Program-made: the position numbers and the translations under genes
Shown here: piece by piece, positions 3,096 to 21,616 of the stretch
How positions within the stretch are numbered: position 1 is the stretch's first letter
Layout: every line of letters starts with the position of its first letter
Notes under the pieces: model-generated
What the model saw: the letters and a program-made list of their open reading frames with translations, nothing else
What the model was told of the DNA's origin: nothing
Database searches by the model: none
Source of the DNA: Deltaproteobacteria bacterium
GTDB taxonomy: Bacteria; Bdellovibrionota_F; JAHFAK01
DNA length: 21,641 nucleotides
Assembly (NCBI GenBank): GCA_023250585.1
Contig: JAHFAK010000024.1
Span: forward strand, 1-21,641
Direction: 5' to 3'

Positions 3096-4596
3096 TATAT
3101 TTTTCCTTAAACTCATCTAATGCTTTTCTTAATTTTGTCTCGAGTTCTTTGCCTATTTCTTTTTTGTTTCGTATTTCTTCTAAGAGAGAAGCATAGCGTG
3201 TATCAAAAAATTCATAGAGCGCATTTTCGAAGTGGGGAATTTTTTTAACATCGATAGTATCAATATAACCTTGAGTAGCGGCGAAAATAACGAGAATCTG
3301 TTTTTCAACTGCAAGAGGAGTGTATTGTGGTTGCTTCAGGATTTCCATCAGTCGGCTTCCTCGTTCGATTTGTCGCTGAGTCGCTTTATCAAGGTCACTT
3401 CCAAATTGCGCAAATGCTGCTAATTCTCGATATTGTGCAAGCTCAAGACGCAATGATCCGGCAATCTTTTTCATTGCTTTAATTTGCGCGTTTCCTCCAA
3501 CTCGAGATACGGAAAGACCTGCGTTGATAGCAGGGCGAATACCTGAATAAAACAAATTACTTTCAAGATAGATTTGTCCATCGGTAATTGAAATTACGTT
3601 CGTAGGAATATAGGCAGAAACGTCTCCTGCTTGTGTTTCAATGATTGGTAATGCCGTAAGTGAGCCTGCTCCTTGAGCATCGTTTAATTTAGCGGCACGT
3701 TCCAGAAGGCGTGAATGTAAATAAAAAATGTCTCCCGGATATGCTTCTCGTCCTGGAGGACGACGAAGTAATAACGAGAGCTGTCGATAACTCACCGCGT
3801 GTTTTGAAAGATCATCATATACAATAAGAGCATGTTTGCCGTTATCCCTGAAGTATTCACCCATGGTTACTCCTCCATAAGGAGCAATGTATTGGAGTGG
3901 AGCGGGATCAGAAGCAGATGCTACAACGACGGTTGTATAGTCCATGGCGCCCGAGAGTTTTAATTTATCGACAACTTGTGCAATGGTGCTTTGTTTTTGT
4001 CCAATAGCTACATATATACAATATACTCCCATGCTTTTTTGATTAATAATGGTATCAATAGCAATTGCAGTTTTTCCTGTCCCTCGGTCGCCAATAATGA
4101 GTTCTCGTTGTCCACGACCGATGGGAACCATGGAATCAATTGCTTTTAATCCCGTTTGTAAAGGTTCATGAACGGATTTACGGGCAACAATTCCGGGAGC
4201 TTTAATTTCAATATTTCGTGTATGTTTTGCTGCAATACTGCCTTTGCCATCAATAGGATTCCCCAGCGGGTCTACAACACGACCGAGTAAGCTTTCACCA
4301 ACAGGAACTTGCAAGATTTTATGAGTTCGTTTTACGGTATCACCTTCTTTGATGTGCGTACTTTCACCAAAAATAGCAACACCGATATTTTCTTCTTCAA
4401 GATTAAGTACGACGCCTTTGGTCCCATTTTCAAATTCAACCATTTCCGATGCCATAACGTGATCAAGGCCGTAAATACGGGCAATACCATCACCAACAAC
4501 CAAGACTTGTCCTACTTCGGCGGTATCAATTTTTTTATCAAAGCTTAAAATTTGTTCTTTTATAATTTCTGATACTTCTTCAATTCTTAATGCCAT
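3088..4596 (-). CDS. atpA: F1 ATP synthase alpha subunit
   Basis: The 502-residue non-catalytic nucleotide-binding subunit of F1 is of normal length. It begins [20 protein letters not shown] and shows the beta-barrel domain ([11 protein letters not shown]), the P-loop GDRGTGKT at residues 169-176, the [29 protein letters not shown] block (given here for its core [18 protein letters not shown]), and the arginine-finger region [16 protein letters not shown]. Alpha subunits alternate with beta and complete the catalytic sites. The gene overlaps atpH upstream by 10 bp and atpG downstream by 8 bp, so it is part of a tightly packed operon. Nothing in the sequence suggests damage. Confidence 0.98.
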
Positions 4597-5117
4597 TGTC
4601 TTCTCCTCTGAATGTTTTCTAAGTGATTTTTTATGCTAAAATCATAGAGGCGGCTTCCTATTCGTAAGGTAAGACCACCAATGAGAGAACTATCTATTTT
4701 TGAATCTATGATAATATTCATTTTAAAAGTGTTTTGTAGTTTTTGGATGATTTGATCCATAACTTTAGGATCTAATTCGCGAGCACTGGTGCATTCAACT
4801 TTCAGAATATTTTTTTCTTTATTATAGAGATCAGTAAAGTGTTCAATAATTGAGGGAAAAAGATCTATTCTTTTTTTGTCAATCAAGAGGGTCATAAATT
4901 TTCGTGTAGCGGGCATAAAATCGTTATATTTAAACACTTCATTGAGAAGAGCATGTTTTTTTGTTTTATCAAGTAAAGGAGAGAAGAAATAGTAATCGAG
5001 ATTAGTTTCATCAAATACTGCAGTGAGCTCCTTGAGCTCACTCTTTGCTTTTTCAATATCAAATTCTTTTGAAGCATCAAAAAATGCTTTTGCATATCTT
5101 CGGGCAACGCTATTCAT
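4587..5117 (-). CDS. atpH: ATP synthase delta subunit (OSCP-like)
   Basis: This 176-residue protein starts [20 protein letters not shown], the typical N-terminal helix of delta/OSCP. It ends with the conserved C-terminal segment [20 protein letters not shown] and a final helix NHLENIQRR. Delta links the peripheral stalk (b and b') to the top of the F1 alpha subunits. The start overlaps the atpF stop by 4 nt (ATGA), and the end overlaps atpA by 10 bp. Length and both conserved ends fit the family. Confidence 0.95.
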
Positions 5118-7510: not shown

Positions 7511-8827
7511 ATGAACGTTAGAGAAATAAACGACCTGTTAAGTAGAGGTGACATTGATCATGAAGAGTTGTGGCCTCATTTATTGGATTTAAAAAAGCAA
7601 GCGGTAACATTTAATTTTGAATTCGGTTTAAAAAAACTCCCTATAGAACCTGGTCTTATAATTATTCGAGGGCCACGGCAATATGGTAAGAGTACCTGGC
7701 TTGAATTACATTTAAAACAGACCATACAATCCTTTAAAAAAGGGAGTGCTTATTATATAAATGGTGATGAAATTTCAACACACGAAGATTTTTTTGAGGA
7801 ACTCATTATATTGAATAATGCTTTTTCAAAAGATGTTCCCGTAAAACGTATTTTTATTGATGAAGTGACTGCTATTATTGACTGGGAAAAAGCGTTAAAA
7901 CGTGCATGGGATCAAGGCTTTTTACGTGATGTATTAATTATAACAACCGGCTCAAAGGCACGAGATTTACGACGTGGCATTGAAAAATTACCCGGCCGCA
8001 AAGGCAAGTTACCTAAAAATGAATACATATTTTTACCCATATCCTATAAAGAATTCCATACATCTTGTAGTCATAAGCTCAAAAGTAAAACTTTGGTATC
8101 GTATTTATTAACTGGTGGCTCTCCGATTGTTTGCAATGAAATGTATTCACATGAACGAATACCTGAATACTGTATTCAATTAATTCGGGATTGGATCCTG
8201 GGTGAAATAGTTTCAAGCGGACGGAGTAGAATTTCTTTGCATAACGTCTTTAACGTGATTTTCAAATACGGCGGCCAAGCCGTTGGATACGCAAAGTTAG
8301 CACGAGAAGCAGGGCTTGCCAATAATACTGTTGCTAGCGGGTATATCGAACAGCTCGTAGACCTTTTGAGTTTGCTGCCATCATGGCAATGGGATCAGAA
8401 TACAAAAAATTTACAGATCAGAAAACCATGTAAATTTAATTTTATTAACCTTGCTGCTGCAATTGCATTTCATCCAAGTACGATAAGAACAGTACATGAA
8501 TTTGAAACGTTACCAGATACTCTACAGGCTCTTTTTTTAGAGTGGATTGTTGCACAAGAAATTTGGAGAAGATCAATACTTGCTGATAGTAGTACTCCTG
8601 AATCGCTTGGGTTTTGGAAATCAGATGAACATGAAATAGATTTTATCACGCCTCAAGAAACCTTTATAGAAGTTAAAAAAGGAAAAGCAGGGCCATTAGA
8701 CTTTTTATGGTTTAATAAAGTTTTCCCCAAGAAAAAATTACTCGTCATATGCAAAACTCCATTTGAAACAAATCAAATCACAGGAATAACGCTTGAAGAT
8801 TTTCTCGTAGACGAGACTATTGTATAA
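7511..8827 (+). CDS. AAA-type ATPase with DUF4143-like C-terminal domain
   Basis: The 438-residue cytoplasmic protein belongs to the large AAA_14/DUF4143 family of P-loop ATPases, whose function is mostly unknown. It has Walker A GPRQYGKS (residues 54-61), Walker B IFIDE (about 114-118), and a sensor-like TTGSKARDLRRG segment. The C-terminal part ends with EIDFITPQETFIEVKKGK, an Asp followed by Glu-x-Lys like the core of PD-(D/E)XK nuclease folds known in this family. No ribosome-binding site is visible; the promoter hexamer lies 6 nt before the ATG, so the mRNA is probably leaderless. The gene stands alone. A divergent paralogue with the same domain order lies at 15759-16982. Both are preceded by a type C hairpin sequence, which may reflect mobility. 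Confidence 0.85.
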   Translation: MNVREINDLLSRGDIDHEELWPHLLDLKKQAVTFNFEFGLKKLPIEPGLIIIRGPRQYGKSTWLELHLKQTIQSFKKGSAYYINGDEISTHEDFFEELIILNNAFSKDVPVKRIFIDEVTAIIDWEKALKRAWDQGFLRDVLIITTGSKARDLRRGIEKLPGRKGKLPKNEYIFLPISYKEFHTSCSHKLKSKTLVSYLLTGGSPIVCNEMYSHERIPEYCIQLIRDWILGEIVSSGRSRISLHNVFNVIFKYGGQAVGYAKLAREAGLANNTVASGYIEQLVDLLSLLPSWQWDQNTKNLQIRKPCKFNFINLAAAIAFHPSTIRTVHEFETLPDTLQALFLEWIVAQEIWRRSILADSSTPESLGFWKSDEHEIDFITPQETFIEVKKGKAGPLDFLWFNKVFPKKKLLVICKTPFETNQITGITLEDFLVDETIV

Positions 8828-8862: not shown

Positions 8863-10158
8863 TTAGTTAATTTTCCATACATGTACTATCGGATCTTCCG
8901 CATTTTGTTGGATAACATAGAGAATTCCATTTTCTTGATCAAAGGCAGCCCCGCCAACTCCGTAATTACATGACGAGAAAAAAGCGGAAGTTAAGTTTAA
9001 ATGTGCATAAGGGATAATTTCCTGAGACTGAATTTTCCCTTGAGCAACAAGAGCCAAATCTTTTGGATCATAGAAAACGAATTCTGGTTCATAGGGGTAA
9101 CAATGATAACCTTTGTATATGCTACAAGAATCGTTACAGGCAGCTGCTTCGCCATAGCATGTTGGGCCTCGGCCTCTTCTTCCTGCAAAGAGTACTCCCG
9201 ATTTCCCATGGGAACTAATCCATACCGCTCCTTCCCACGAATCACATTCACTCCATTGTGGAAAATATTGAGGAGAATTTTCTGGAGCAGCAGGATAATA
9301 GAGAAGTACCGTAGCAGGTAAGACAGAGTCATTTTTTGGATTACTATCATTCGACGGAGGTTCAACAGCAAAAAGAGCTGGACCATAACTATTAGCAGCA
9401 AGCCCTGGCCCATCGCCTTTGCCTGTCGCTATAGACATTCCTTGAGTATAATTTTCCGCCCAGTTTTTAGGAATTTCAAACATATAATTTGCCGTCTTTT
9501 TTTGATGAAATGGCTCGGTTCCAAATGGTCCGATATGCCATACTCCTTGAGCTTCTGGATGAGCTAAGTCTCTTTTTGATCGACCATGTGATGCATAGTC
9601 GATGTCTCCAGGAGGTTGAACAGAATAATACTGAAAAAAGCTCCAGTAAAGCCAATCTCCATCTGCAATATAGACTAATCCTCCAAAGACATTCATATCT
9701 TCAGGCGCTAAGATGGTGTTTTTAAGCCCTTGAGTTATATCCATAAAATCTTGAAGCTGCGTGGCAACAGGAAGCTCCTGTAGGGCTTTATTCGCTGAAA
9801 TTATTGGTTGTGGAATAGAACATTCTCCAACAAGATTATCATAGACATGGCCTGAGCCAAAGAGTGAACCTGGATAACCATCGTTAGAACTTTTTTCATC
9901 TCCTTTGGGATAAAAGGTCAGTGCCATACCTCCATATCCCCAACGTGAAGCTCCATAGATTTCTTTTGGTAGAAGAAAAGCACCTTGGTACTGTAAATCC
10001 TCAGGTTGAAGCAGCTTTTCTTGAGCTTCTGCTGTATGTGTAGTGGGAGTTGATTCGACATTTTCTTGTGTGCCATTTCTTCCGGTGTCGGTATTATTCC
10101 CACAGGTAATGAACCATGAGATTAAGAAGAGTAACAAAATGAAGCGTGCTCGTATCAT
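8863..10158 (-). CDS. Exported lipoprotein of unknown function
   Basis: I do not recognise this family. The ATG at 10158 gives 431 residues with a signal peptide MIRARFILLLFLISWFITC, where the Cys followed by GNN suggests a lipoprotein (the Thr before Cys is unusual). A longer frame starting at TTG 10188 would place 10 polar residues before the signal and is less likely. The mature protein has a low-complexity Thr/Glu linker, then a region rich in aromatic residues and Gly with short beta-strand-like repeats (WGYGGMALTFYP, DGDWLYWSFFQYYS, EGAVWISSHGKSG, GVGGAAFDQENGILYVI). This suggests a beta-propeller or similar secreted fold. Ten Cys residues beyond the lipobox, six of them close together (PTCYGEAAACNDSC...), point to disulphides in the periplasm or outside. 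It is convergent with the ATPase gene and has no obvious partner. Confidence 0.75.
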   Translation of the reverse strand: MIRARFILLLFLISWFITCGNNTDTGRNGTQENVESTPTTHTAEAQEKLLQPEDLQYQGAFLLPKEIYGASRWGYGGMALTFYPKGDEKSSNDGYPGSLFGSGHVYDNLVGECSIPQPIISANKALQELPVATQLQDFMDITQGLKNTILAPEDMNVFGGLVYIADGDWLYWSFFQYYSVQPPGDIDYASHGRSKRDLAHPEAQGVWHIGPFGTEPFHQKKTANYMFEIPKNWAENYTQGMSIATGKGDGPGLAANSYGPALFAVEPPSNDSNPKNDSVLPATVLLYYPAAPENSPQYFPQWSECDSWEGAVWISSHGKSGVLFAGRRGRGPTCYGEAAACNDSCSIYKGYHCYPYEPEFVFYDPKDLALVAQGKIQSQEIIPYAHLNLTSAFFSSCNYGVGGAAFDQENGILYVIQQNAEDPIVHVWKIN

Positions 10159-10391
10159 ATAATCAGAATTAAGCAAAATGTATGCCAAAAACTATAAAAT
10201 ATGTATATTATAACATACTAAATTTATTGATATTATTCATAAGTATTTTTTTGAGTACCGTAATTAATTCTCTTTTATTTAATTTCCTTGTAAAATGTGC
10301 AGCCTAATATGAATTTTGTACGAGTTGACATGGTTATGAGGTATCCAAGAAATTTATGCATAAGGGGGATATGGCGTGTTCTACGTTATTG
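10159..10391. other. AT-rich non-coding stretch upstream of the 10158 gene
   Basis: About 230 bp with no convincing long gene. It should hold the promoter of the lipoprotein gene; a TATAAT on the minus strand around 10207-10212 has no good -35 at 17 nt. Near 10325 there is a TTGACA on the plus strand, and AAGGGGG at 10362-10368 precedes the small ORF at 10371. Confidence 0.4.
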
Positions 10392-10502
10392 ATACTAAGT
10401 TGCATTCAAACGCTAACTGCGTTGGCTTCGTCGTCGGCTCCTCAACGTACTCATTACGTACGTTTGCGTCGCCTTCTCCTTGCCGCCTTGTTATCATTTT
10501 GA
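10371..10502 (+). CDS. Small ORF running through the family B element (possible peptide)
   Basis: An ATG at 10371 preceded by AAGGGGG opens a 43-codon frame that begins MACSTLLILSCIQTL, runs through the whole family B core and stops with TGA at 10500-10502. The peptide has two hydrophobic stretches, with basic residues before the second (VRLRRLLLAALLSF). Good ribosome-binding-site placement is the only sign of expression. Most of the frame is repeat DNA, so this may be accidental. Confidence 0.25.
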   Translation: MACSTLLILSCIQTLTALASSSAPQRTHYVRLRRLLLAALLSF

Positions 10503-10516
10503 ATGCAACTTAGTAT
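10392..10516. repeat. Family B hairpin element, copy 2
   Basis: Perfect 19-bp inverted arms (10392-10410 and 10498-10516) flank an 87-bp core (10411-10497). The core lies in the opposite orientation to that at 5655-5741 and is about 80% identical without gaps. The inner hairpin is AACGTAC (10444-10450) with GTACGTT (10458-10464). Three arm positions differ from copy 1, and both arms change together, so pairing is kept. The right arm codes the last residues (TKLHSK, stop) of the gene at 10494-11966. Confidence 0.93.
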
Positions 10517-11966
10517 GAGAAGACGGAGCATAATCATTCGTGAGCATATATTCCAAAGCTTCGAATAATGAAATCTGTGCTGTCTTACTAAGATCAAGGA
10601 GTAGCCTGAAATTTTTGCTATCACTAGGAGAAATTCCCCAAAAAATAGAGGAATCTTGTTGTGGAGCAGATTCTTGTGCTGCGGTCTGATTTGAATTCCT
10701 ATCTTTTTTTTCCTTATGTGATAATGGTTCATGAAGTAAATAATTACTGATAAGCATAAGAAGACCATCAGATAAAAGGGCGCTGCCATTGGTTATTACG
10801 AAATTGTATACAGGCATATTATGAGTTTTTAGGTGCTCCATGATTTTTTTCATTTCAATACCCATAGTTGCATTCGCTGCTTCTGCAGCTACTATACTCA
10901 TGAGCATAAAAGGATCATTTACACAATGATTGATTTCCTGGGGTAGTTTGTTTTGTACAAGCCATCGTTCACGAGCAAGAAAAGGAAAATAAGTGCGTAT
11001 AAGATAGTGTGCTTCGGGATTTATACGTGCACTTAATAATGAATGTGCAATAGTAAAATAGTTTATCATTGAATTTAATAAATCGGGATCTCCAACAACG
11101 AGAAGTTGTTGGTTGCCTTTTTCTAGATCATATAAGTAATTTCGGCTAACACCAAGTTCGTCTAGTGTCTTTTTTAAGCTCACATGATCTTCAGATGGAT
11201 GATACATAAATAATATATTATTTTTCAGAGGAACAAGTTGGTCCTTGAAAGCATATGTTTCTCTTCCCTCGAGAGTCTTAATTTTTACAAATGGCCCCCG
11301 CTCTTCTAGTTTAGAAACTAAAAAGTAACGATAGAAATAGGGAGAAGAACTATCGGGAGTGGTCCATCCTCTATATTCTGGCACTTTAAGAAAAGCCGGC
11401 GCTCCCGATAGAAGAGTAACTTCACCTTGTGTAGATGGAACAATTTTCAATATATTTTTTGTATATTGGGTATCAACGAAAGAAAAGAATCTATCTTCAG
11501 TTGGAGCATAAAAAATATAGCGATGCGGAATAAGTCTAAATCTTAGCTGTACCGAGAGGTATTCGTCACTAGCTGTTTCGGGATCTTCAACTATTTTATG
11601 TAGAATAGCTAATGTAATAAAAGGTTTTTGATCGGGGTTAGCGTCGTTGAGAAAGAAGACTTTATCGCCCGTTTGCAAATCACTGAGAGATTGTACCGTT
11701 GGAAAAGCTACACCGTTAGAATATCTATTCAAAAATTCTTTGATGGCAGAAGCGATAGGGCCATTAATAGAAGGGAGATGTGTATCTTCTAACTTTGTAC
11801 TAATAGGAGAACGTTTTGTTACATCCTCATTAAAAATGTTACATGCATATGTTTGACCAGAGTGAATATTTACTATGAGTAACAGTACAATAAGAAAAGC
11901 CAGTCTCATTTTTAAATTAAATGTTTTGCGCAAAGGCACTAAGTGTATACGAATCATAATCCCCAT
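10494..11966 (-). CDS. Exported protein of unknown function, C-terminus formed by a repeat
   Basis: This 490-residue protein is not recognisable to me. It carries a signal-peptide-like segment MRLAFLIVLLLIVNIHSGQTYA ahead of CNIFNED. ATG codons at 11966, 11957 and 11909 are in frame. The promoter candidate at 11972-12000 ends 5 nt before 11966 and favors that start as leaderless, though it leaves a 19-residue n-region; 11909 would give a more compact signal peptide. The middle contains beta-rich stretches (SDLQTGDKVFFLNDANPD, GPFVKIKTLEGRETYAFKDQ) that look like SH3-like or similar barrels, then a helical region to the end. The last six codons (TKLHSK) and the stop lie in the right arm of a family B element, so the original C-terminus may have been lost or replaced. 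Confidence 0.75.
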   Translation of the reverse strand: MGIMIRIHLVPLRKTFNLKMRLAFLIVLLLIVNIHSGQTYACNIFNEDVTKRSPISTKLEDTHLPSINGPIASAIKEFLNRYSNGVAFPTVQSLSDLQTGDKVFFLNDANPDQKPFITLAILHKIVEDPETASDEYLSVQLRFRLIPHRYIFYAPTEDRFFSFVDTQYTKNILKIVPSTQGEVTLLSGAPAFLKVPEYRGWTTPDSSSPYFYRYFLVSKLEERGPFVKIKTLEGRETYAFKDQLVPLKNNILFMYHPSEDHVSLKKTLDELGVSRNYLYDLEKGNQQLLVVGDPDLLNSMINYFTIAHSLLSARINPEAHYLIRTYFPFLARERWLVQNKLPQEINHCVNDPFMLMSIVAAEAANATMGIEMKKIMEHLKTHNMPVYNFVITNGSALLSDGLLMLISNYLLHEPLSHKEKKDRNSNQTAAQESAPQQDSSIFWGISPSDSKNFRLLLDLSKTAQISLFEALEYMLTNDYAPSSHTKLHSK

Positions 11967-12208: not shown

Positions 12209-12241
12209 TTGACAAAAATTGCCGCGACATATGATTATGAT
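12209..12241 (+). promoter_or_regulatory. Weak promoter candidate for the haem-binding protein gene
   Basis: A perfect TTGACA (12209-12214) is followed by TATGAT at 15 nt (12230-12235) and again at 21 nt (12236-12241). Neither spacing is ideal. The first would again place the start site near an ATG (12243 or 12249). Confidence 0.3.
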
Positions 12242-12248
12242 AATGTAT

Positions 12249-12794
12249 ATGAAAAAGAAATTTCTTATAGGAGGGCTGATAGTAATTGCTTATATCCTTA
12301 TTACGCGCTTTATTTCAATTGAAGCAACTCATAGTATGAAAGTTCAACCTCCGGTGATTTGTACAATTGATAATCCCATTGATGCCCAGAAGTATGATTT
12401 CCATATTATCAATCGAGGATTTCCGTGTGAGAAGATCCGCGAAATACATAATCAATATATGGTTCAAGTACAACCTATTATTGAAAAAAAATGTTTGATG
12501 TGTCATGGATTTGTGGCGAAGATGCCATTGTATGCATTTATACCTCCGACTTCGTGGCTCATTCATCATGACCAAAAAGAGGCAAAAGAATATATGGATA
12601 TGAGTTTTGGTTTTCCGTTTAAAGGTACCGGCTCTGCATCTGAGGATTTAGAAACACTTCGTGACATTGTAAGGGACAATGAAATGCCTCCGTTGCAGTA
12701 TCGTATTATGCATTGGCAATCACGTTTAACAGAAGATGAAAAAACAGTTATTCTCGAATGGATCGAAACAGGACTTAAAAGATTGGAAGAATAA
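12249..12794 (+). CDS. Membrane-anchored haem-binding (CxxCH) protein
   Basis: This protein of about 181 residues has an N-terminal membrane segment (FLIGGLIVIAYILITRF) and a single c-type haem motif CLMCH (residues 82-86), in a context (VQPIIEKKCLMCHG) resembling Haem_bd domain and Planctomycete-type cytochrome c proteins. The C-terminal HWQSRLTEDEKTVILEWIET matches the end of that domain, and a Met such as that in DNEMPPLQYRIMH could be the second haem ligand. It probably faces the periplasm and may take part in electron transfer. In-frame ATG codons at 12231, 12237, 12243 and 12249 and a TTG at 12219 are possible starts; I chose 12249, directly before the basic KKK and membrane helix. It is followed after 5 bp by a thioesterase gene, probably co-transcribed. 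Confidence 0.8.
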   Translation: MKKKFLIGGLIVIAYILITRFISIEATHSMKVQPPVICTIDNPIDAQKYDFHIINRGFPCEKIREIHNQYMVQVQPIIEKKCLMCHGFVAKMPLYAFIPPTSWLIHHDQKEAKEYMDMSFGFPFKGTGSASEDLETLRDIVRDNEMPPLQYRIMHWQSRLTEDEKTVILEWIETGLKRLEE

Positions 12795-12799
12795 AACTT

Positions 12800-13258
12800 A
12801 TGAGTAAACAATCATTTCAAGAATTATTTGGCTCTGACAATCATTGCTTTGGGTGTGGCATGCATAATGGACACGGTCTTCGCATCAAAAGTTTTTGGGA
12901 TGGAGATTATGCAGTAGCAATATTTAATCCACAATCTTATCACTGCGCAGGTTCTACAACAATCGTCAACGGCGGAATTTTAGGAGCGCTCATCGATTGT
13001 CACTGTAATTGCTTTGCCATAGCTGATGCCTACAAACGAGAAGGCTGCGAAATGGGGACGAATCCAAAGATTTGGTATGTTACGGCGAATTTAAATGTTT
13101 CATATAAAAAGCCTGTAGCGATTGATACTCCAATTTATTTGAAAGCTGTCGTTAGTAAAATCGATGGACGAAAAACATGGATGAGTTGCGAATTATTTTC
13201 GAAAGACGCACTGTGTGTCACCGGTGAAGTACTTTCAATTCGATTGATCGATAAGTGA
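12800..13258 (+). CDS. PaaI-type hotdog-fold thioesterase
   Basis: This 152-residue protein resembles PaaI/YigI-like acyl-CoA thioesterases. The N-terminal NHCFGCGMHNGHGLRIKSFW is the common 'CfvCG..Np.GL.l' opening of a subfamily. The central TTIVNGGILGALIDCHCNCFAI is the hotdog helix with the usual His/Asn-Gly-Gly region, though here the helix is rich in Cys and His. A C-terminal VTANLNVSYKKPVAIDTPIYLK strand region completes the fold (named here by its YKKPVAIDTPIYLK part). The substrate is unknown. It follows the haem-binding gene by 5 bp, and its 3' end overlaps the convergent beta-propeller gene by 24 bp. Confidence 0.82.
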   Translation: MSKQSFQELFGSDNHCFGCGMHNGHGLRIKSFWDGDYAVAIFNPQSYHCAGSTTIVNGGILGALIDCHCNCFAIADAYKREGCEMGTNPKIWYVTANLNVSYKKPVAIDTPIYLKAVVSKIDGRKTWMSCELFSKDALCVTGEVLSIRLIDK

Positions 13259-15370
13259 AATATTTTTTATAGGATTTTCTAAATCATCAGTATGTGAAAT
13301 TGAAATTATATCTCCTGCAACTGAATAAACATAGTCATCCATGATAATACTTCTTTTGACCGTCGAATTTGATTCTGCCCACCAGTTATTGCAGTCATTC
13401 TCGGGATTACTTCCTTGATAAGGAATTCCTCCTTTGAGTTTGAATCCTCCTTCGATGGTTACATCATACACTCGAAGTCCATTAAAGGTCATATCAGATC
13501 CATATGAAGATCCACCCGTGCTTTCATCACAAATCGCAATGGGTAATGCTAAAAGGTTTTTTTCTTGAAAGTAATTAAATGCTAGATGATTTGTCGCTGC
13601 GTCAGATGTTGAGCCTCGTGTTCCAATAATTTCTTTATGAATAAGTGATGGATTTTTCGGATCTTCAATGCTGAAAATTTGGAGCATAATTCCCTGAAAC
13701 CATGCAAATTCACCTTGATCATCAGCATCATAGCCAATGGTAAGTAGATGAGTTTCATCCATCATATGCATATAAGTTGAAAAGCCAGGAATCTGTAATT
13801 CACCCTGAATTACAGGATTTTCAGGATTACTTAAATCTAAGATAAATAATGGATCAGTCTTTTTAAACGTAACAATGAATCCAAGGTTGCCATTAAATCT
13901 CACTGAACGAATATCTTCACCGGGAGCAATGTTATCAATAGAGCTGATAAGTCTAAGTTCATTATTTTCTTCTTTTAAAATAGAAAGCGAATTACTGACC
14001 ATCCAACCGATACTTGTAGCGATTCTTAAATTGCCGTTATATTCGTCCATAGAAAATTGATTGAGCACGTTTCCTTTTATAACTCCACTGCCCTTATACG
14101 TAGCTGTGACATGAGTACTATCTAATTGAAATTTATGAACTACCGTTGCTTCCTGTAATTCATCACGATTATCAAAATACCATGAATTCATGGCATAAGC
14201 ATAATGTCGGGTAGCTACATAGAATGATTTTTCATTTGCATAGGTCGTACCTGGTTTTCCAAGGATAATCGTTTCGTTTATGGGGGCAAGTTCATTTATA
14301 TTCAGTGCATACAGGCCTAAAAAACTCTGCCCATCATGCGATTGCGATACATAATAGTTATTACAATTCGAAGATTCTTCCTGCGATTGATTCTCCCCAT
14401 AGCGAATATCTTCTATGCGAGGCAGAGAATAATTATGCTCGGCAATGATTGTTTTATTGATATCTTTTAATTCATTAAAGAGGGATTCAAGTTCCAATCC
14501 ATTATACGCTTCTAATTCATCGCACGAAGGATAACCATAGGGAAATGCTTTTGGATAATAGCTTATTTCGCTCGGTATACTATTTTGCGGATATATAACT
14601 ACTGTATAAAGAGCGTTATCTATTCTTCGCGAATTAAGATAAGACCCATGAAATGAAGTTTCCCGAAGTAACGTAGGATTTGTTTTATCACTGATATCAA
14701 GCATCGTAATTTTTAAGAATTTTCCATCTTCGGAAAAATCGCAATCGTATCCATACATACATTCGGGATAACTCGGATAACTTATCGAGCTATTTTTAGT
14801 TTCCTCATGCTTAGCTTCGAGCGATGAATAAATAACAACACGATTATTATACACAAAAAGACGTTTTGGTTCTCCTTCGATTGTAACCCGAGAAAGCACG
14901 TGTGCTTCTTCGGGAGGAAATGCTTGGAGAATTTGAAATACTTTATCTGCTACAATATAAATATAGGTCCCATCATTTTTTATAAAATCTGCTTCGTCGA
15001 TTCCTGCAACTTGATTGTTAGTCTCTGAATAATCATGTGCGCCACTGTCACTAATTCCTGAAGAAGCTACTGCTACATCCGTTGTTTCCGTTGGAGTTGC
15101 ATTATATCCCGTGTCGCTATACGTACGACAGAACTCTTTTTTTTCTAAAATGTAGGCATAATTATCATCCACTCTTTTTTCCATATCTGCGGTAAGACGA
15201 GAAATTAATTCCGTCTGTACTTCGTCGCAACTCGCAGCACTCTTTAGTTTTGCTAGTTCTTGAGCATCGACTTCACTCGGACGTGGTTTAATCTCCCCGA
15301 TGTCCTCATACTGACAACTCAGGAAAACGAGAACAATCAAAAAGCTCAGTTTTGTGATACTTTTATTCAT
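13235..15370 (-). CDS. Beta-propeller domain lipoprotein (Beta_propel/PF09826-like)
   Basis: The 711-residue protein has a clear lipoprotein signal MNKSITKLSFLIVLVFLSC. It then shows the family signature QVAGIDEADFIKNDGTYIYI, repeated beta-propeller blades (PKRLFVYNNRVVIYS, GNLRIATSIGWM, GNLGFIVTFKKTDPLFILDL), and the late motif GSTSDAATNHLAFNYF typical of secreted C-terminal beta-propeller proteins. It is probably attached to the membrane and acts in the periplasm or at the surface; its function is unknown. ATG 15370 has AAGGAG 5 nt upstream. A promoter-like motif shared with the ECF sigma gene (TGAGACAAA, 14 nt, GTCTA) lies 33-60 nt upstream, suggesting ECF control. The 3' end overlaps the convergent thioesterase gene. 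Confidence 0.85.
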   Translation of the reverse strand: MNKSITKLSFLIVLVFLSCQYEDIGEIKPRPSEVDAQELAKLKSAASCDEVQTELISRLTADMEKRVDDNYAYILEKKEFCRTYSDTGYNATPTETTDVAVASSGISDSGAHDYSETNNQVAGIDEADFIKNDGTYIYIVADKVFQILQAFPPEEAHVLSRVTIEGEPKRLFVYNNRVVIYSSLEAKHEETKNSSISYPSYPECMYGYDCDFSEDGKFLKITMLDISDKTNPTLLRETSFHGSYLNSRRIDNALYTVVIYPQNSIPSEISYYPKAFPYGYPSCDELEAYNGLELESLFNELKDINKTIIAEHNYSLPRIEDIRYGENQSQEESSNCNNYYVSQSHDGQSFLGLYALNINELAPINETIILGKPGTTYANEKSFYVATRHYAYAMNSWYFDNRDELQEATVVHKFQLDSTHVTATYKGSGVIKGNVLNQFSMDEYNGNLRIATSIGWMVSNSLSILKEENNELRLISSIDNIAPGEDIRSVRFNGNLGFIVTFKKTDPLFILDLSNPENPVIQGELQIPGFSTYMHMMDETHLLTIGYDADDQGEFAWFQGIMLQIFSIEDPKNPSLIHKEIIGTRGSTSDAATNHLAFNYFQEKNLLALPIAICDESTGGSSYGSDMTFNGLRVYDVTIEGGFKLKGGIPYQGSNPENDCNNWWAESNSTVKRSIIMDDYVYSVAGDIISISHTDDLENPIKNISLIDQSN

Positions 15371-15758: not shown

Positions 15759-16982
15759 ATGATCAATAGAGTTCTTGAAACATGGGCTTTTGATAGGAGT
15801 TTTCTTCATAATAAAATGTCATTTATTGCCGGCCCGCGGCAGGTTGGCAAGACTACTTTGGCTCAAAAATTTCTTAAAAATTTAGCTCAGGAAGACTGTT
15901 ACTACAATTGGGATACACTCGGATTTAAACAGCAGTTCGCAAAAAATCCTCTTTTCTTTAAAGAAACGTTTCCGCCTCGGGCAAAAAATCAATGGATTGT
16001 TTTTGATGAGATACATAAATACCCTCAGTGGAAAAATCTCTTAAAAGGTTACTATGATGAAATGAAAGATGAAGTACAATTCATTATTACGGGTAGTGCA
16101 CGCCTGGATCTTTTTAGAAAATCGGGAGATAGTCTTGCAGGAAGGTATTTTTTATTTAAGCTATTTCCGCTCGGTCCAAAGGATATAGTCAAAACACTAT
16201 ATAATCGTACAAAGAGCTGGAATCCCAAAGATCTTCTTGAGGATATCCCTCCCGCAAATTCTACTTTCTCCGAAGCTGTTGATTCTTTATATAATACGAC
16301 CGGCTTTCCTGAACCTTTTTTAGATGGAACAAAAGATTTTTATAACCGTTGGAAGGATATTCATCTCTCGCTTATTATTAATGAAGACATACGAGATCTT
16401 ACCAAAATAACTCACATAAAAAAATTAGAAACGCTCGTCTTTCTTTTACCAGAACGTGTGGGCTCTCCTATTAGTTTAAATGCTCTCAGAGAAAATCTGG
16501 AATGCTCTCATGAATCTATTAAGACGTGGCTCGAAGCCTTTAATAAAGTTTTTATTAGCTTTGATATTCCTCCGTATACAAAAAAGCTCTCACGCGCTAT
16601 TCTCAAGGAGAAGAAAATATATTTTTGGGATTGGGGAATAGTAGAAGATACAGGAAAACGATTTGAAAATTTTGTCGCGGTCCAACTCGCGCGTGTAGTT
16701 ACTCAGTGGAATGAATGGGGTTTAGGGAAATATAGCCTTCATTATATTAGAACAAAAGATGGGTATGAAGTTGATTTTGCAATAGCACTCAATAATACAG
16801 TTGTGTTACTTATAGAGGTGAAAGAACAAGCAACTGAAGTGCCCAAGAGCTTTATCTTGATAAGAGAAAAACTCAATAACCCACTTTCTTTCCAAGTAAT
16901 TCACAGGAAAGGATTTTATAAAAGAACCAAGGAAAATATTCTTGTTTTAGGAATTGATCGCTTATTACAACTTTTGCCATAG
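15759..16982 (+). CDS. AAA-type ATPase with DUF4143 domain (second copy)
   Basis: This 407-residue protein has Walker A GPRQVGKT (residues 25-32), Walker B IVFDE (about 80-84) followed by IHKYPQWKNLLKGYYD, the sensor segment FIITGSARLDLFRKSGDSLAGRY, and a C-terminal DUF4143 region with EVDFAIALNNTVVLLIEVKEQ (core VDFAIALNNTVVLLIEVK), an Asp/Glu-x-Lys arrangement like PD-(D/E)XK nucleases. This is a more standard member of the AAA_14/DUF4143 family than the protein at 7511. Function is unknown. There is no ribosome-binding site; its own promoter overlaps an inverted repeat downstream of the RHH gene, which makes the RHH protein a candidate regulator. It ends 10 bp from the convergent Cys-rich lipoprotein gene. 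Confidence 0.9.
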   Translation: MINRVLETWAFDRSFLHNKMSFIAGPRQVGKTTLAQKFLKNLAQEDCYYNWDTLGFKQQFAKNPLFFKETFPPRAKNQWIVFDEIHKYPQWKNLLKGYYDEMKDEVQFIITGSARLDLFRKSGDSLAGRYFLFKLFPLGPKDIVKTLYNRTKSWNPKDLLEDIPPANSTFSEAVDSLYNTTGFPEPFLDGTKDFYNRWKDIHLSLIINEDIRDLTKITHIKKLETLVFLLPERVGSPISLNALRENLECSHESIKTWLEAFNKVFISFDIPPYTKKLSRAILKEKKIYFWDWGIVEDTGKRFENFVAVQLARVVTQWNEWGLGKYSLHYIRTKDGYEVDFAIALNNTVVLLIEVKEQATEVPKSFILIREKLNNPLSFQVIHRKGFYKRTKENILVLGIDRLLQLLP

Positions 16983-16992
16983 CTGATTATCT

Positions 16993-17319
16993 TCATTCTT
17001 GAACATCAACGAGAAAATATTCACAAATATTATTTATACATTGTATTTCATCTGTTCCACATTCTCTATACACCTCCGTACAGATTACGCCCTTACAGTC
17101 AAATTCATTTAAGAATTCTTCTTGTTGATTCTTGTTAATTGCTAGGTCTTCACCTCCATTAGCGCAGTCGCAACAACCGTTATTGATATATATACAATCG
17201 CTATCTGTAGTACATGTCCTATATTTCAATGTTTCAGCTTCTGGCATAGAGGTTTTTAAGCCTTCTGAAGAACATGAAATACTTAGTAAAAGTAGTATAA
17301 AATAGATTAAGTGTTTCAT
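16993..17319 (-). CDS. Small Cys-rich lipoprotein
   Basis: A 108-residue protein with signal MKHLIYFILLLLSISC and a good lipobox (SISC followed by SSEG). The mature part has ten Cys residues after the lipobox (CTTDSDC, GCCDC, DCKGVIC, EC, QC, IC), suggesting a compact disulphide-stabilised domain outside the cytoplasm. The GCCDCANGGEDLAINK motif recalls small secreted Cys-rich domains found in deltaproteobacterial lipoproteins, but I cannot name a family. ATG 17319 has AAAGGAG about 6 nt upstream. A motif identical in boxes and spacing to the one before the beta-propeller gene lies 32 nt upstream, so it is probably part of the same ECF regulon. Confidence 0.8.
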   Translation of the reverse strand: MKHLIYFILLLLSISCSSEGLKTSMPEAETLKYRTCTTDSDCIYINNGCCDCANGGEDLAINKNQQEEFLNEFDCKGVICTEVYRECGTDEIQCINNICEYFLVDVQE

Positions 17320-17418: not shown

Positions 17419-18588
17419 TTATCGATCAAACCATCCATCGAGCGCAAAGCCTTCTAACGTAGTTATTGATGAATTGATCACATCGATTTTTGTAAGGAGG
17501 CCAAGGGAATTTGCGTGTGTTACAAAAAGTGCGTCTTTGTAATCGTGAATTTTTAATGGATCTTTGAGAAGAGCATAACGGCTTGCTATCGTATTGGTTG
17601 AAAGATTAAGCGCTACGAGTTCTTCATCCGATAAGATAAGAAGCTTGGGTGTTGTATCTGCTTCGCCTTCATGATAAAAAAGCATTTTTATTGAAGACAA
17701 ATCCGATACCGAAGCACGTGTTTCGGACAATGTTATTGGAGTTTCAAGAGAAGTATAATTTCTGATGATGATAGTATCAGACGAAGCCACCGTAGCCATA
17801 TAGAGTGTCGTATGACTTGCATTCATAATCATATCTAGAGGCGTAAAGTCGAGCGTTTCTGAATCACGAGTAGTATTATTTTCTAAATCAAAAATAACGA
17901 ATTCTTTTCCACAAGCCAGAAAGATATATTTGTCGGTAGCATAAAATTGTGCAGCCGTAACTGTAGTACAAACCATGGCTTGATTAATTGACGAAGGAGT
18001 CGAAGGATTAAAATAAAGCAGCGTCGTATCACTACTTCCAAAGAGAACAACAAAATTATCTGAGACTTCGATCTTATGTGGGTCCGTGGCTAATGAAATA
18101 ACCTCTTGTGAAGAAATAGCAAGGCTTTCATCCAAATGAATTACTTCCATTTGTTTATCGCTCGAGAGAATAAAGATTTCGTTACTGGTTTTTGAAATCT
18201 TGATGTCAGTAATATTTATGACTGAAAGAGATACATTTTTTGTTGAATCATTTTTAGTATCAATAAAAGTAAGATAGTTTTCCATACGATCATTAACGAC
18301 GACGAAATTCCCATCATCTGAAGCAGCAAGAATATCAAGAGTTTTTCCCGTCGAAATATTTTTTACCAGCGTGAAATTTTCCAAGTTAATTTTTGAGACG
18401 GTTTTAAATGATTCATTGGTACTATAGAGAAACTTAACATTTCCTGTTGCGCTTGGGGGTTCCGTTGACACAGATGTCTCATCTCCAACTGTAGGTTGAT
18501 TAGCAAAAATTGTTGAGTCTTCTTCATGTGGTCCTGAGCTACAGTGAAGAAGCATGAGAAGGCTTATGAAAATATGAGCATGTTTCAT
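17419..18588 (-). CDS. Propeller-like lipoprotein in the caspase operon
   Basis: A 389-residue exported protein. The signal MKHAHIFISLLMLLHC is followed by SSG; His before the Cys is unusual for a lipobox, but the Cys-Ser-Ser context supports a lipoprotein. The mature part consists of repeated beta-strand blades of about 40-45 residues (VKFLYSTNESFKTVSKINL, LAASDDGNFVVVNDRM, IKISKTSNEIFILSSDKQ, ATDKYIFLACGKEFVIFDL, MIMNASHTTLYMATVASS), like a YVTN/NHL-type propeller, often a protein-binding scaffold. The function is unknown. It starts 4 bp after the caspase stop, and its ribosome-binding site lies in the end of that gene, so it is translated from the same mRNA and may be a partner of the caspase-like protein. 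Confidence 0.75.
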   Translation of the reverse strand: MKHAHIFISLLMLLHCSSGPHEEDSTIFANQPTVGDETSVSTEPPSATGNVKFLYSTNESFKTVSKINLENFTLVKNISTGKTLDILAASDDGNFVVVNDRMENYLTFIDTKNDSTKNVSLSVINITDIKISKTSNEIFILSSDKQMEVIHLDESLAISSQEVISLATDPHKIEVSDNFVVLFGSSDTTLLYFNPSTPSSINQAMVCTTVTAAQFYATDKYIFLACGKEFVIFDLENNTTRDSETLDFTPLDMIMNASHTTLYMATVASSDTIIIRNYTSLETPITLSETRASVSDLSSIKMLFYHEGEADTTPKLLILSDEELVALNLSTNTIASRYALLKDPLKIHDYKDALFVTHANSLGLLTKIDVINSSITTLEGFALDGWFDR

Positions 18589-18592
18589 AGTT

Positions 18593-20245
18593 TTAAAACC
18601 TCGTAACGACTCCTATTTGTTCTCCAATACTTGTATATGCAATATCTCCAAATGTGGTAAATGCAAGGGGCACGAAACGGATATCACTCATTGCAACGAT
18701 AAAAATATTATTTGCAACACGTAAGAAAAACCGTAAGCCTCCTAAATATATTGGTCCATATGATGTGTCAGCGCTATCTCTATCCTCAATTGAATAGACT
18801 AAATGAGCATATGAAAAACCTGCTCCTGCAAATATTTGAGCGGAAAGAGCGTAATTTTGAAACAAGGTATACGATGGTGCAATCGTATATGAGAGCTGAT
18901 AAAATTGAGTCGTAAGATTAATCGTATCATCGAGCGTTTGTTCAAATGTTTCGGTGAGATGAATTTCAGAAGCAATTTTCAAAGGTCGTTTTAAGAGAGT
19001 CATTAAGTGATGCGTATAACCAAGCGAAAGATCATATCCATAATCAAGTCCGACTTTTTCTTTCCATTGATTTCCAAAAAAATATGATGGTCCGAGCTTA
19101 AATTCAATTTCATTCGGTTTTGGTTTAATAATTTTTTCAAGAGAAATTTTAGTATTGGTATTTAACGAAATTTTGTCTTTAAAGACAACTTCGTTATCTT
19201 CTGTCTTAACTTCAATCATATACGTTCCTGGCTCCAGCGAAAAAAATCCTGGGAAACTTCCTTTTTTAGTTCCATTTGCAAAGAGGCTGTATTTTTCAAA
19301 TTGTGTTGCGTATGAATAGAGACTTGGATTTGGATCTTTGATTTGTGCTCCACTTAAAATCACAGGATCAGAGCCGGCAAGATTCACTTGAGCTGTGGGA
19401 ATTTGCTCTCCTTTTGTATAAAGATATGTCAGCTCTTTCGCGAAATCATGTGCTTCAAGAGCTGAGATGGCTCCATCTTTATTTTTGTCACTTAAAGATT
19501 TTTCTTGGAATGATTTAATGAGAAAGTGCGTATAAATATCATTTTGTAGACCCGCGTCCTCTTTTGCTGATTCAGTGATACGGGATGCTGACAAAATAAT
19601 TGATGCTTCAGAAACATCGTTAAATGGTAACAAAACAGGAGCCCCTTTGATACCAGTCAGATCTTTTTGTGTTGAAGAAGAAAACTTTGATTTTCCAATG
19701 CCTGAATAACAAGAAGCAATGATGAGTAATTTACGCTGTGACTTTAACAGGTTAAATTTTTCATGAATCGTCGCGAGAGAAATTCCGGTTTGTGGAATAT
19801 CATTCTCATCAGTATCACGTACGATAAGAAATTGTTGAAATTCCTGTGTATGTTTCATAGGAATAATCGTTCCATGAGTTGAAAAGTAAATGAGCACAGT
19901 ATCTTCACGCTTAGTATTTTCAAGGAGTAAGTCGTTGAGCTTTTGGATAATTGTTTTACGATCCGTAAGATCGCTTGTTTCTAAAAGAACAACTCGGTTG
20001 AAATTACTTTCTTTATTGGTGAGTGCAAGAGCCAAATCATTTGCATCTTTTGCTGCAAATTTTAAATCAGGCCAAAAGGGATCATCAAAGTCATTAATGC
20101 CTACAATAAGAGCTATGCGTTTGGGCTGATTCTCTTGAGAGCTATCTTTATAATAATATTTCCATTCTGCTGTGGTTGCCTTGAGAGGAAAGAAACATAC
20201 AGCAATAATGAAAAAAGTTATTTTGTTAAGAGAATAGTTATACAC
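18593..20245 (-). CDS. Exported caspase-like protein with EF-hand-like loop and C-terminal outer-membrane beta-barrel
   Basis: The 550-residue protein has a signal peptide (FFIIAVCFFPLKATTA, cleavage before EWK), then a peptidase C14 caspase domain (about 43-300) with RIALIVGINDF, the catalytic His124 in YFSTHG and Cys179 in IASCYSG. Within it DKNKDGAISALE (253-264) fits a 12-residue EF-hand calcium loop. A beta-sandwich-like section follows (about 305-370, with PGTYMIEVK), then a region of alternating strands from about 378 that ends in VVTRF. A terminal Phe after amphipathic strands is the hallmark of outer-membrane barrels. Ala replaces the Asp usually preceding the Ser-Cys pair in metacaspases, so specificity may differ. 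GTG 20245 is used because it gives the signal peptide and has AGAGG upstream; it overlaps the anti-sigma gene by 28 bp. Confidence 0.85.
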   Translation of the reverse strand: MYNYSLNKITFFIIAVCFFPLKATTAEWKYYYKDSSQENQPKRIALIVGINDFDDPFWPDLKFAAKDANDLALALTNKESNFNRVVLLETSDLTDRKTIIQKLNDLLLENTKREDTVLIYFSTHGTIIPMKHTQEFQQFLIVRDTDENDIPQTGISLATIHEKFNLLKSQRKLLIIASCYSGIGKSKFSSSTQKDLTGIKGAPVLLPFNDVSEASIILSASRITESAKEDAGLQNDIYTHFLIKSFQEKSLSDKNKDGAISALEAHDFAKELTYLYTKGEQIPTAQVNLAGSDPVILSGAQIKDPNPSLYSYATQFEKYSLFANGTKKGSFPGFFSLEPGTYMIEVKTEDNEVVFKDKISLNTNTKISLEKIIKPKPNEIEFKLGPSYFFGNQWKEKVGLDYGYDLSLGYTHHLMTLLKRPLKIASEIHLTETFEQTLDDTINLTTQFYQLSYTIAPSYTLFQNYALSAQIFAGAGFSYAHLVYSIEDRDSADTSYGPIYLGGLRFFLRVANNIFIVAMSDIRFVPLAFTTFGDIAYTSIGEQIGVVTRF

Positions 20246-21027
20246 GATTTAGTATCCTCTTTCTGTAATTCATCAAGTGTTCGTATTGTTTTCTTTACAA
20301 TGTATGCGCAAAAGCTAACGTTGGGTTCATCTATATGAGCGAGTGAATATGCTGCAAGTCGATTGTTTATTGTTAGATCATGGGTTCCAACGCGCATAAA
20401 TAGAGACGTTTCAATCTTTTCGGGATAGATCAGTTTCATTTTATTTTGAGCTTTTTCTATAAGATACAGATATCCTGCAGTTTTCAACTGAAATGAAAAG
20501 AAGAGGTCATTGTTTCGTGAAAGGGTTATATTATTTTCAATAAAACCTTGGATCTTTCTTTCTTCTCCATTCATTGTCCCAAATTGAGCGGTAAGCATAA
20601 TAGATGATAGGCTGTCTCCCTTAATTCCCGTATAGGGAGTTTCTGAGATTTCTTTCGTGAGATACACAAATACAAAAGACAACGCAAACACTGCAATAAA
20701 AACGGCCGCAAAGGCGGGGCGAGTAAAACTCGAGAAAATTTTCTGTAAAAAGAAAGCAAAACGAGATGATCTTTTTTGTGAAATAATTTCACGTAAAATG
20801 GAATTCTTTTTTGCTTCATTATACGAAAAATTTTGTGATTGTTGTTGTCGACAATCTTCGAGTAGAGCAAAGAGAGTAATACGTTTTTCATCTTCTGCCT
20901 GGCTTAAGAATACTTCGCATGATTCACATTCTTGCCCAAGATGATCGCTCAGCATTGTATGTTCTTCTTGAGTCAGTGTGCCATTAATCAGCGCATCAAA
21001 TTTTTTAGTGAATATACATGTGTTCAT
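20218..21027 (-). CDS. Membrane anti-sigma factor with DUF4384-like domain
   Basis: A 269-residue protein that follows the sigma gene with an ATGA overlap. The N-terminal part has HLGQECESC (His29, Cys34, Cys37), close to the zinc-binding motif of ZAS-type anti-sigma factors, which hold ECF sigma factors inactive. A single membrane segment follows (PAFAAVFIAVFALSFVFVYL, about 104-123). The C-terminal part (about 150-269) contains NDLFFSFQLKTAGYLYLIEK and MKLIYPEKIE, typical of the DUF4384 domain that is often found next to caspase-like proteins in deltaproteobacteria. It probably lies in the periplasm and senses a signal. The His-x4-Cys spacing is one residue longer than the classic His-x3-Cys. 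The gene overlaps the caspase gene by 28 bp, implying coupled expression. Confidence 0.85.
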   Translation of the reverse strand: MNTCIFTKKFDALINGTLTQEEHTMLSDHLGQECESCEVFLSQAEDEKRITLFALLEDCRQQQSQNFSYNEAKKNSILREIISQKRSSRFAFFLQKIFSSFTRPAFAAVFIAVFALSFVFVYLTKEISETPYTGIKGDSLSSIMLTAQFGTMNGEERKIQGFIENNITLSRNNDLFFSFQLKTAGYLYLIEKAQNKMKLIYPEKIETSLFMRVGTHDLTINNRLAAYSLAHIDEPNVSFCAYIVKKTIRTLDELQKEDTKSCITILLTK

Positions 21028-21557
21028 GACTTTTCCTTTCCTTGCGAAAGTAAGTCTTGTGCAAGATCTTTCATCATTTTTACTCTAAATCGATTAAGCT
21101 TTGTCGTTATGGTGCTGATTGGAATTCCCAGCTCATCTGAAATTTCGCGAACCTTTTTTGTATCATAATAAAAGCATTCTATAATTTTTTTTAAAGTAAG
21201 ATCCGTAATAGTTTGTACGTAGTTTTTAATGATTTCTTTTAATTGAACATCTTCTGCTCTATATTCTTCGGATGACTCAAATTCTTTTCCATATTGTTTA
21301 AAAGCTTCACGCTCAGTAATTTTTTTTCTCAAATATGTTTTTCCTTCATTATGAGCAATTGCAATAAGCCAACTCTTAACTTTTGTCTGATCTCGTAATG
21401 ATTCAATGTTGTTGTATACTTTCATAAACACCGTTTGTACGATATCATATGAGCATGCCTCATTATAATTGGTATATTTTTGCGCAATAATAAATATCAA
21501 ATTAAAATGCTCATTATATACCGTATTGAAATATTGATTCTTTTTGTCTTTCATCAT
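21024..21557 (-). CDS. ECF-family RNA polymerase sigma factor
   Basis: A 177-residue sigma70-family protein. Region 2 is visible as FNLIFIIAQKYTN...DIVQTVFMKVYNNIESL and KVKSWLIAIAHNEGKTYLRKK, and region 4 as LTLKKIIECFYYDTKKVREI followed by the helix-turn-helix SDELGIPISTITTKLNRFRV. No region 3 lies between them, as expected for ECF factors. I use ATG 21557 (MMKDKKN...); a TTG at 21572 would overlap the predicted promoter. It is the first gene of the operon sigma - anti-sigma - caspase-barrel - propeller lipoprotein. Two promoter candidates overlap just upstream, a sigma70-type and a self-type, suggesting basal expression plus autoregulation. Confidence 0.92.
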   Translation of the reverse strand: MMKDKKNQYFNTVYNEHFNLIFIIAQKYTNYNEACSYDIVQTVFMKVYNNIESLRDQTKVKSWLIAIAHNEGKTYLRKKITEREAFKQYGKEFESSEEYRAEDVQLKEIIKNYVQTITDLTLKKIIECFYYDTKKVREISDELGIPISTITTKLNRFRVKMMKDLAQDLLSQGKEKS

Positions 21558-21559
21558 AT

Positions 21560-21588
21560 TAGACAGATACAATAACTATTTTGTCTCA
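21560..21588 (-). promoter_or_regulatory. Predicted autoregulatory ECF-sigma promoter
   Basis: On the minus strand TGAGACAAA (21588-21580), 15 nt, GTCTA (21564-21560). The boxes match those at 15403 and 17351, with one extra spacer base. The -10 box ends 2 nt before the first ATG, so transcription would start near the second ATG (21554). Confidence 0.5.
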
Positions 21589-21616
21589 TTATACTCACTT
21601 TTCTTTGGATTGACAC
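21588..21616 (-). promoter_or_regulatory. Candidate sigma70-type promoter of the sigma operon
   Basis: On the minus strand GTGTCA (21616-21611), a 17-nt spacer and a perfect TATAAT (21593-21588). The last T of TATAAT is the first T of TGAGACAAA, so the two promoters abut. Confidence 0.45.

Follow-up and report, generated by a model that had tools for sequence, protein, structure and literature searches.

A conserved sigma/anti-sigma/caspase-barrel gene block as a possible self-inducing circuit at the bacterial outer membrane

Here we analyzed four genes in a 21,641-nucleotide stretch of DNA, referred to as the window, from a Deltaproteobacteria bacterium (GTDB lineage Bdellovibrionota_F; contig JAHFAK010000024.1 of assembly GCA_023250585.1). 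They encode an extracytoplasmic function (ECF) sigma factor, a membrane anti-sigma factor, a secreted caspase-like protease with a C-terminal beta-barrel, and a secreted beta-propeller-like protein. The protease is a bacterial relative of the caspases, known for their part in animal cell death. The first three make up a conserved block, and its anatomy is well supported: gene order, linkage, catalytic residues, a barrel-type C terminus and a recurrent Lys-Gly dipeptide (KG). We propose, tentatively and at somewhat less than an even chance, that this block is a self-inducing ECF circuit around an outer-membrane-anchored, periplasm-facing caspase, which plausibly cuts its own anti-sigma factor.

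The four nearly touching genes described in the initial annotation are real, with open reading frames at 21024-21572, 20218-21027, 18593-20245 and 17419-18588. All lie on the minus strand; the first two junctions are overlaps of 4 and 28 bp, and the third is a gap of 4 bp. The genes are as follows.

21024..21557, minus strand: ECF sigma factor, 177 amino acids from an ATG start, with an alternative TTG start at 21572 (Sigma70_r2, 5.8e-10; sigma70-ECF, 8.8e-18)
20218..21027, minus strand: membrane anti-sigma factor, 269 amino acids, directly 3' of the sigma gene, with an N-terminal His/Cys-rich (HC-rich) domain, one transmembrane helix and a periplasmic domain
18593..20245, minus strand: secreted caspase-like protease with a C-terminal barrel, 550 amino acids, GTG start
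17419..18588, minus strand: secreted beta-propeller-like protein, 389 amino acids (PQQ_ABC_repeats, 8.2e-6, and YNCE, 3.6e-4, both below cut-off)

Relatives of the caspase are present in 110 of 195 Myxococcota genomes, most of them near full length and many in multiple copies, with up to 4 matches per genome. By profile detection, the sigma, anti-sigma and caspase genes lie on one strand in 35 of 41 sampled loci; both gaps are 60 bp or less in 32 of those 35, with medians of 3 and -4 bp. The gene order is unchanged in two genomes from a further family (f159), and all three genes are also present in a metagenome-assembled genome of Bdellovibrionota (locus L019). Among 386 sampled genomes from many families, full-length caspase relatives were not found outside Myxococcota, f159, this Bdellovibrionota genome and the source phylum, which is represented by two genomes only in the collection; a search of viral contigs returned no relatives. 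In the tree, the window sequence joins that of L019, a grouping at risk of long-branch artefact, and locus L018 is labelled Myxococcota. Sigma, anti-sigma and caspase-barrel genes thus constitute a well-supported conserved block of near-invariant order, usually with coupled starts. The linkage anticipated for four genes holds for these three and not for the propeller gene, the position of which is occupied differently elsewhere. The fusion of a caspase to a barrel, initially considered unusual, is widespread and not rare, and operons of sigma factors with metacaspases were already reported in 2012 (PMC3501461). As a separate observation, paralogous sigma/anti-sigma pairs in loci L186-L194 of Myxococcota lie beside a caspase of a second, divergent type, which has the motif DACESG, an ordinary signal peptide and possibly also a barrel C terminus.

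The following features were located in the caspase-like protein.

20168..20245, minus strand: signal peptide region, residues 1-26, with Cys17 in the lipobox column of the relatives and Val at -1 (IAVC)
19388..20122, minus strand: Peptidase_C14 (caspase) domain, residues 42-286 (Pfam, 5.6e-13)
19874..19876, minus strand: catalytic His124, present in 39/39 aligned sequences
19709..19711, minus strand: catalytic Cys179, present in 39/39 aligned sequences
19454..19489, minus strand: EF-hand-like calcium loop DKNKDGAISALE, residues 253-264, from family conservation and an EF-hand_5 match in one member
19136..19324, minus strand: PEGA-like beta domain, residues 308-370 (PEGA match in 6/39 members)
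18596..19111, minus strand: predicted outer-membrane beta-barrel, residues 379-550, with a terminal Phe (OMP_b-brl, strand alternation, HHalign)

The PF00656 score above the gathering cut-off and the invariant His-Cys dyad place this protein in the C14 caspase superfamily, and 37 of 39 relatives match PF00656 at E <=0.05. The motifs YFSTHG and IASCYSG, the signal peptide and the terminal Phe, on which the initial annotation had been based, are all present. In the EF-hand-like loop, D253, D257, G258 and E264 are found in all 39 sequences, and position 255 is N or D. A Cys occupies the lipobox column in 36 of the 39; the IAVC of the window protein departs from a canonical lipobox by its Val at -1. 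The PEGA-like domain is the best-predicted part of the AlphaFold model, with a block predicted local distance difference test (pLDDT) score of up to 88.

Evidence for the barrel was obtained mostly at the level of the family. The OMP_b-brl profile matched the window protein with an E of 0.0027 over its whole length and of 3.1e-4 in the C-terminal third alone, both below the Pfam cut-off, and matched 9 of 32 family members at E <=1. Hydrophobic strand alternation in the family exceeded that of all 2000 shuffles (p 0.058 for the window sequence alone). In HHalign, the family barrel, built without the window, aligned to 16 OMP_b-brl proteins from other loci at 93.4% over 149 columns, versus at most about 4% in ten control pairings with reversed profiles or other domains. 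Profile, amphipathic strands and a terminal aromatic residue thus characterize the family as having an OMP_b-brl-type barrel, and profile evidence supports the barrel predicted after residue ~378. A Foldseek search with the weak barrel model returned nothing at E <=0.001 (amphipathic-hairpin proteins among the top rows were disregarded), and a PDB search with the barrel profile returned no relative.

An even-stranded barrel with a C-terminal Phe is expected to place an N-terminal domain on the periplasmic side. On this topology, the caspase and PEGA-like domains would point into the periplasm and lie across from the anti-sigma factor's periplasmic domain. Of the two locations initially considered for the protease, the periplasm is consistent with this arrangement, and surface exposure, unlikely for such a barrel, was rejected. 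The source genome contains three Omp85 matches and so has an outer membrane; it encodes a single C14 caspase.

The sigma factor was correctly recognized as a member of the ECF type. Its region 4 match is below the Pfam cut-off, and the ECF superfamily model scores above its own cut-off. ATG 21557 is more likely to be the start than TTG 21572. Sigma regions 2 and 4, together with an adjacent gene for a one-helix anti-sigma factor, identify an ECF sigma/membrane anti-sigma pair. The anti-sigma factor has the following features.

20917..20943, minus strand: H-x4-C-x2-C motif, residues 29-37, conserved in the anti-sigma family
20659..20715, minus strand: predicted transmembrane helix, residues 105-123, a hydrophobic stretch in the sequence
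20617..20622, minus strand: Lys136-Gly137 in the juxtamembrane linker on the periplasmic side, a candidate cleavage site, with KG in 25/26 relatives

Residues H29, C34 and C37 are each conserved in 24 of 26 family members. By comparison, zinc-binding anti-sigma (ZAS) factors have H-x3-C-x2-C, and zf-HC2 matches were obtained in 2/26 members. The annotation of this protein as an anti-sigma factor stands, and its proposed DUF4384-like sensor does not: the match in the window protein (E 0.018, 15.6 bits) is below the Pfam cut-off of 27, and none of the 25 other members scanned has one, so that DUF4384 was rejected as an established domain.

KG recurs in the linkers of both membrane-associated proteins. 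The linker of the window anti-sigma factor reads GIKG (residues 134-137), and the count of 25 among 26 relatives compares with a shuffle maximum of 12. In the caspases, the linker between lipid anchor and protease domain contains KG in 36 of 39 sequences, with [ED]KG in 32 and a shuffle maximum of 16; kinship among the sequences inflates both counts, and the linkers are otherwise variable. All nine divergent anti-sigma paralogues beside the second caspase type also contain KG; of the paralogues with no caspase seen in their short loci, two are without it and one has it. Metacaspases and orthocaspases cleave after Arg or Lys (PMC6426788), and KG is thus a candidate cleavage site in both the anti-sigma factor and the caspase. 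Separately, in the anti-sigma factor at 3643-4767 (plus strand) of locus L164, from genome G322, a long linker of Ser-Pro repeats separates transmembrane helix and periplasmic domain, and KG is retained.

Two tentative sites precede the sigma gene of the window.

21561..21587, minus strand: ECF-promoter-like site GAGACA-N16-TGTCT, just 5' of the sigma gene
21588..21616, minus strand: sigma-70-like promoter GTGTCA-N17-TATAAT, a 10/12 consensus match, adjoining the GAGACA site

The window is an entire contig of a 2.24-Mb genome in 164 contigs and ends 69 bp past TTG 21572, which cuts the upstream context. GAGACA-N16-KGTC is common to the window and two f60 loci (L072 and L075), in each case 5' of the sigma gene, with a shuffle probability of 1.5e-4 that is to be read in light of the post hoc choice of the pattern. 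A search for a regulon of the window motif in its own genome gave 3 sites versus 2 for the reversed control, and sigma-70-like sites were no commoner in the upstream region than in shuffles. In myxobacteria, 14 loci have a promoter-like GTGGC-N17-GGTC ahead of the sigma gene, compared with 4-6 for the best shuffled pattern; kinship among loci inflates the count. The motif lies mostly 33-78 bp ahead of the sigma start codon and recurs in more distant lineages, for example at L070, L076 and L088. In eight genomes, a regulon search with this motif gave no clear excess over the reversed control. The motif is therefore not clearly enriched genome-wide, which suggests that the operon may be the main target of its own sigma factor.

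The fourth gene slot is variable. At least 26 of 41 loci have a lipobox-like open reading frame starting 40 bp or less 3' of the caspase stop codon. The encoded protein is of the CarboxypepD_reg type in 5 of 8 tested, with a weak VWA match in one. Some loci, among them L019 and L078-L080, have nothing or something else in this position. The propeller protein was not found in other caspase-bearing genomes, in a search without a positive control. It is lineage-specific and outside the conserved block, and a coupled secreted partner as such is common. The designation of the window protein as a propeller lipoprotein is partly borne out, by propeller-type matches that are sub-threshold and an atypical lipobox (LLHC); the idea of a four-gene unit with the propeller as adaptor was rejected on the basis of the CarboxypepD_reg-type lipoproteins that hold the slot elsewhere. 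In f60 (L071 and L074), the fourth-slot lipoprotein has about 590 amino acids, and that of L074 shows the weak VWA match (DNSGSMV) behind its CarboxypepD_reg domain.

In the proposed circuit, the anti-sigma factor would span the inner membrane and hold the sigma factor through its cytoplasmic HC-rich domain, and its periplasmic domain would be carried on the short linker with the Lys-Gly site. The caspase would be kept at the outer membrane by its barrel and, in most myxobacteria, additionally by a lipid. Envelope conditions might activate or admit it, possibly with Ca2+ bound in the EF-hand-like loop. Cutting of its anti-sigma substrate at K|G, the most conjectural of these steps, would then free the sigma factor to transcribe mainly its own operon, yielding more caspase and a lineage-specific secreted partner, namely the propeller in the window and a carboxypeptidase-regulatory-like lipoprotein elsewhere. 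In this economical model, the caspase would be both product and trigger of its operon. The specific proposition that the outer-membrane caspase is the site-1 protease of its own anti-sigma factor at the juxtamembrane Lys-Gly, and that myxobacterial caspases also release themselves at KG, we consider rather unlikely as it stands.

Several observations weigh against the proposed circuit. Metacaspases have an acidic residue two positions before the catalytic Cys (D-x-C), and all 39 sequences of the present family have Ala177 there. They thus lack the acidic S1 residue of the metacaspase/orthocaspase subgroup and would not have a standard metacaspase pocket, so that a preference for basic P1 residues cannot be taken for granted; the second, divergent caspase type does have the acidic residue (DACESG). 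KG could simply mark the start of the folded periplasmic domain, and the control set of anti-sigma paralogues without a caspase nearby is tiny and drawn from short loci. The window caspase is a divergent member of the block, with no clear lipobox and no KG in its linker, both as in the Bdellovibrionota member, in which the sigma/anti-sigma pair is, moreover, divergent from the caspase gene. The myxobacterial GTGGC-N17-GGTC motif is absent from the window. The window barrel has no direct match to the myxobacterial barrel hidden Markov model, and the two barrels may have strongly diverged or been exchanged. AlphaFold models from three-sequence input reached a pLDDT of 37 for the window protein and 40 for the L018 barrel and are not interpretable.

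It is quite possible that the caspase is solely an output of the circuit. Unrelated envelope stress, through another site-1 protease or a ligand on the periplasmic domain, would then inactivate the anti-sigma factor, and the induced caspase would trim or degrade envelope or foreign proteins, with KG as a sorting, processing or structural feature. ECF operons are classically understood in this way. The gene order and the promoter motif are just as compatible with this reading, ligand binding by the anti-sigma periplasmic domain is conceivable, and the missing linker KG of the window caspase speaks for it. It leaves unexplained the recurrence of KG in both sets of linkers and its association with neighbouring caspases.

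An improbable alternative is that the caspase processes the variable fourth-gene protein by shedding or maturation, the sigma circuit supplying a matched protease and secreted substrate. The frequency of a coupled lipoprotein-like reading frame, with domain content differing by lineage, would fit, as would a [VI][KR]G motif conserved near the lipidated Cys of the fourth-slot protein in 15 of 27 cases. However, the RG may simply come with the homologous CarboxypepD_reg fold, no motif of this kind is seen close to the Cys of the window propeller, and in some loci the fourth slot is vacant or otherwise occupied. We regard as very improbable a module for lysis or programmed cell death in development or predation, as proposed generally for prokaryotic metacaspases. 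Myxobacteria show developmental lysis and hold several copies (PMC3501461), but the block has no linked toxin, pore or death-domain partner and also occurs in a small separate phylum, in a genome of 2.2 Mb, and secretion takes the protease away from targets in the cytoplasm.

The self-inducing circuit has partial counterparts among known systems. In Escherichia coli, sigmaE is an ECF sigma factor held by the one-helix anti-sigma factor RseA, with the inner-membrane serine protease DegS. The present block likewise has a one-helix anti-sigma factor with a periplasmic domain that is perhaps cut by an envelope protease; unlike in sigmaE-RseA-DegS, the place of DegS would be taken by an operon-encoded caspase-fold cysteine protease fused to an outer-membrane barrel.

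Asplund-Samuelsson et al. (PMC3501461) described sigma-70 genes in operons with metacaspases, in four of five cases in M. xanthus and also in other Deltaproteobacteria. The operons of Myxococcus xanthus, Anaeromyxobacter, Haliangium and Sorangium likewise combine a sigma factor and a metacaspase and, judging by phylum and copy number, very probably comprise the genes recovered here as relatives; the window, by contrast, lies outside Myxococcota. The text of that paper never mentions a barrel (0 occurrences), and in its operon section there is no mention of a lipid anchor, an anti-sigma role, a promoter motif or a KG motif. In the open-access literature, to which the search was confined and which excludes subscription papers, we found no description of the barrel, lipid anchor, promoter motif or KG motif. 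The sigma-caspase linkage has thus been known since 2012, and the new leads are the operon-specific myxobacterial promoter-like motif and KG in both linkers.

ECF sigma genes near caspases have also been noted in EACC2 neighbourhoods (PMC8195603). For the window caspase, the NCBIfam model caspase_w_EACC1 (NF047832) gave a match of 1.4e-20, short of the model's cut-off. EACC1 and EACC2 systems have EACC and tetratricopeptide repeat partners (PMC8195603), whereas the caspase described here is secreted, bears a barrel and is accompanied by an anti-sigma factor. Among solved structures, yeast Yca1 (4f6o) and Arabidopsis metacaspase-4 (6w8s) are the best relatives (8e-4 to 2e-3). The p20 fold and His-Cys dyad are shared with these metacaspases and with orthocaspases; the Ala two before the catalytic Cys, the secretion and the added PEGA-like and barrel domains are not.

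An ATP synthase operon at the opposite contig end shows that the four-gene block is on an ordinary chromosomal contig. The other genes observed on this contig are listed below.

16993-17319, minus strand: Cys-rich lipoprotein, 108 amino acids, no Pfam match, 100 bp 3' of the propeller gene and co-directional with it
13235-15370, minus strand: Beta_propel protein, 711 amino acids (PF09826, 1.9e-130), mid-contig
12219-12794, plus strand: haem-binding-domain protein (PF14376), mid-contig
7511-8827 and 15759-16982, plus strand: two AAA_14/DUF4143 ATPase genes
8863-10188 and 10494-11966, minus strand: long open reading frames of 441 and 490 amino acids, no Pfam match at E <=0.001

The Cys-rich lipoprotein gene may extend the operon; Cys-rich tails are also present on some myxobacterial fourth-slot lipoproteins.

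Little is known of what caspase homologues do in bacteria. The block described here brings together sigma factor, anti-sigma factor and protease in one operon, with a predicted localization and a candidate cleavage site, which opens the question of the substrate to Myxococcus xanthus mutants. If the proposed circuit is correct, it would constitute transmembrane signalling by a caspase in bacteria. A caspase driving gene expression via an anti-sigma factor, and not cell death, would change the view of the ancestral role of this fold.

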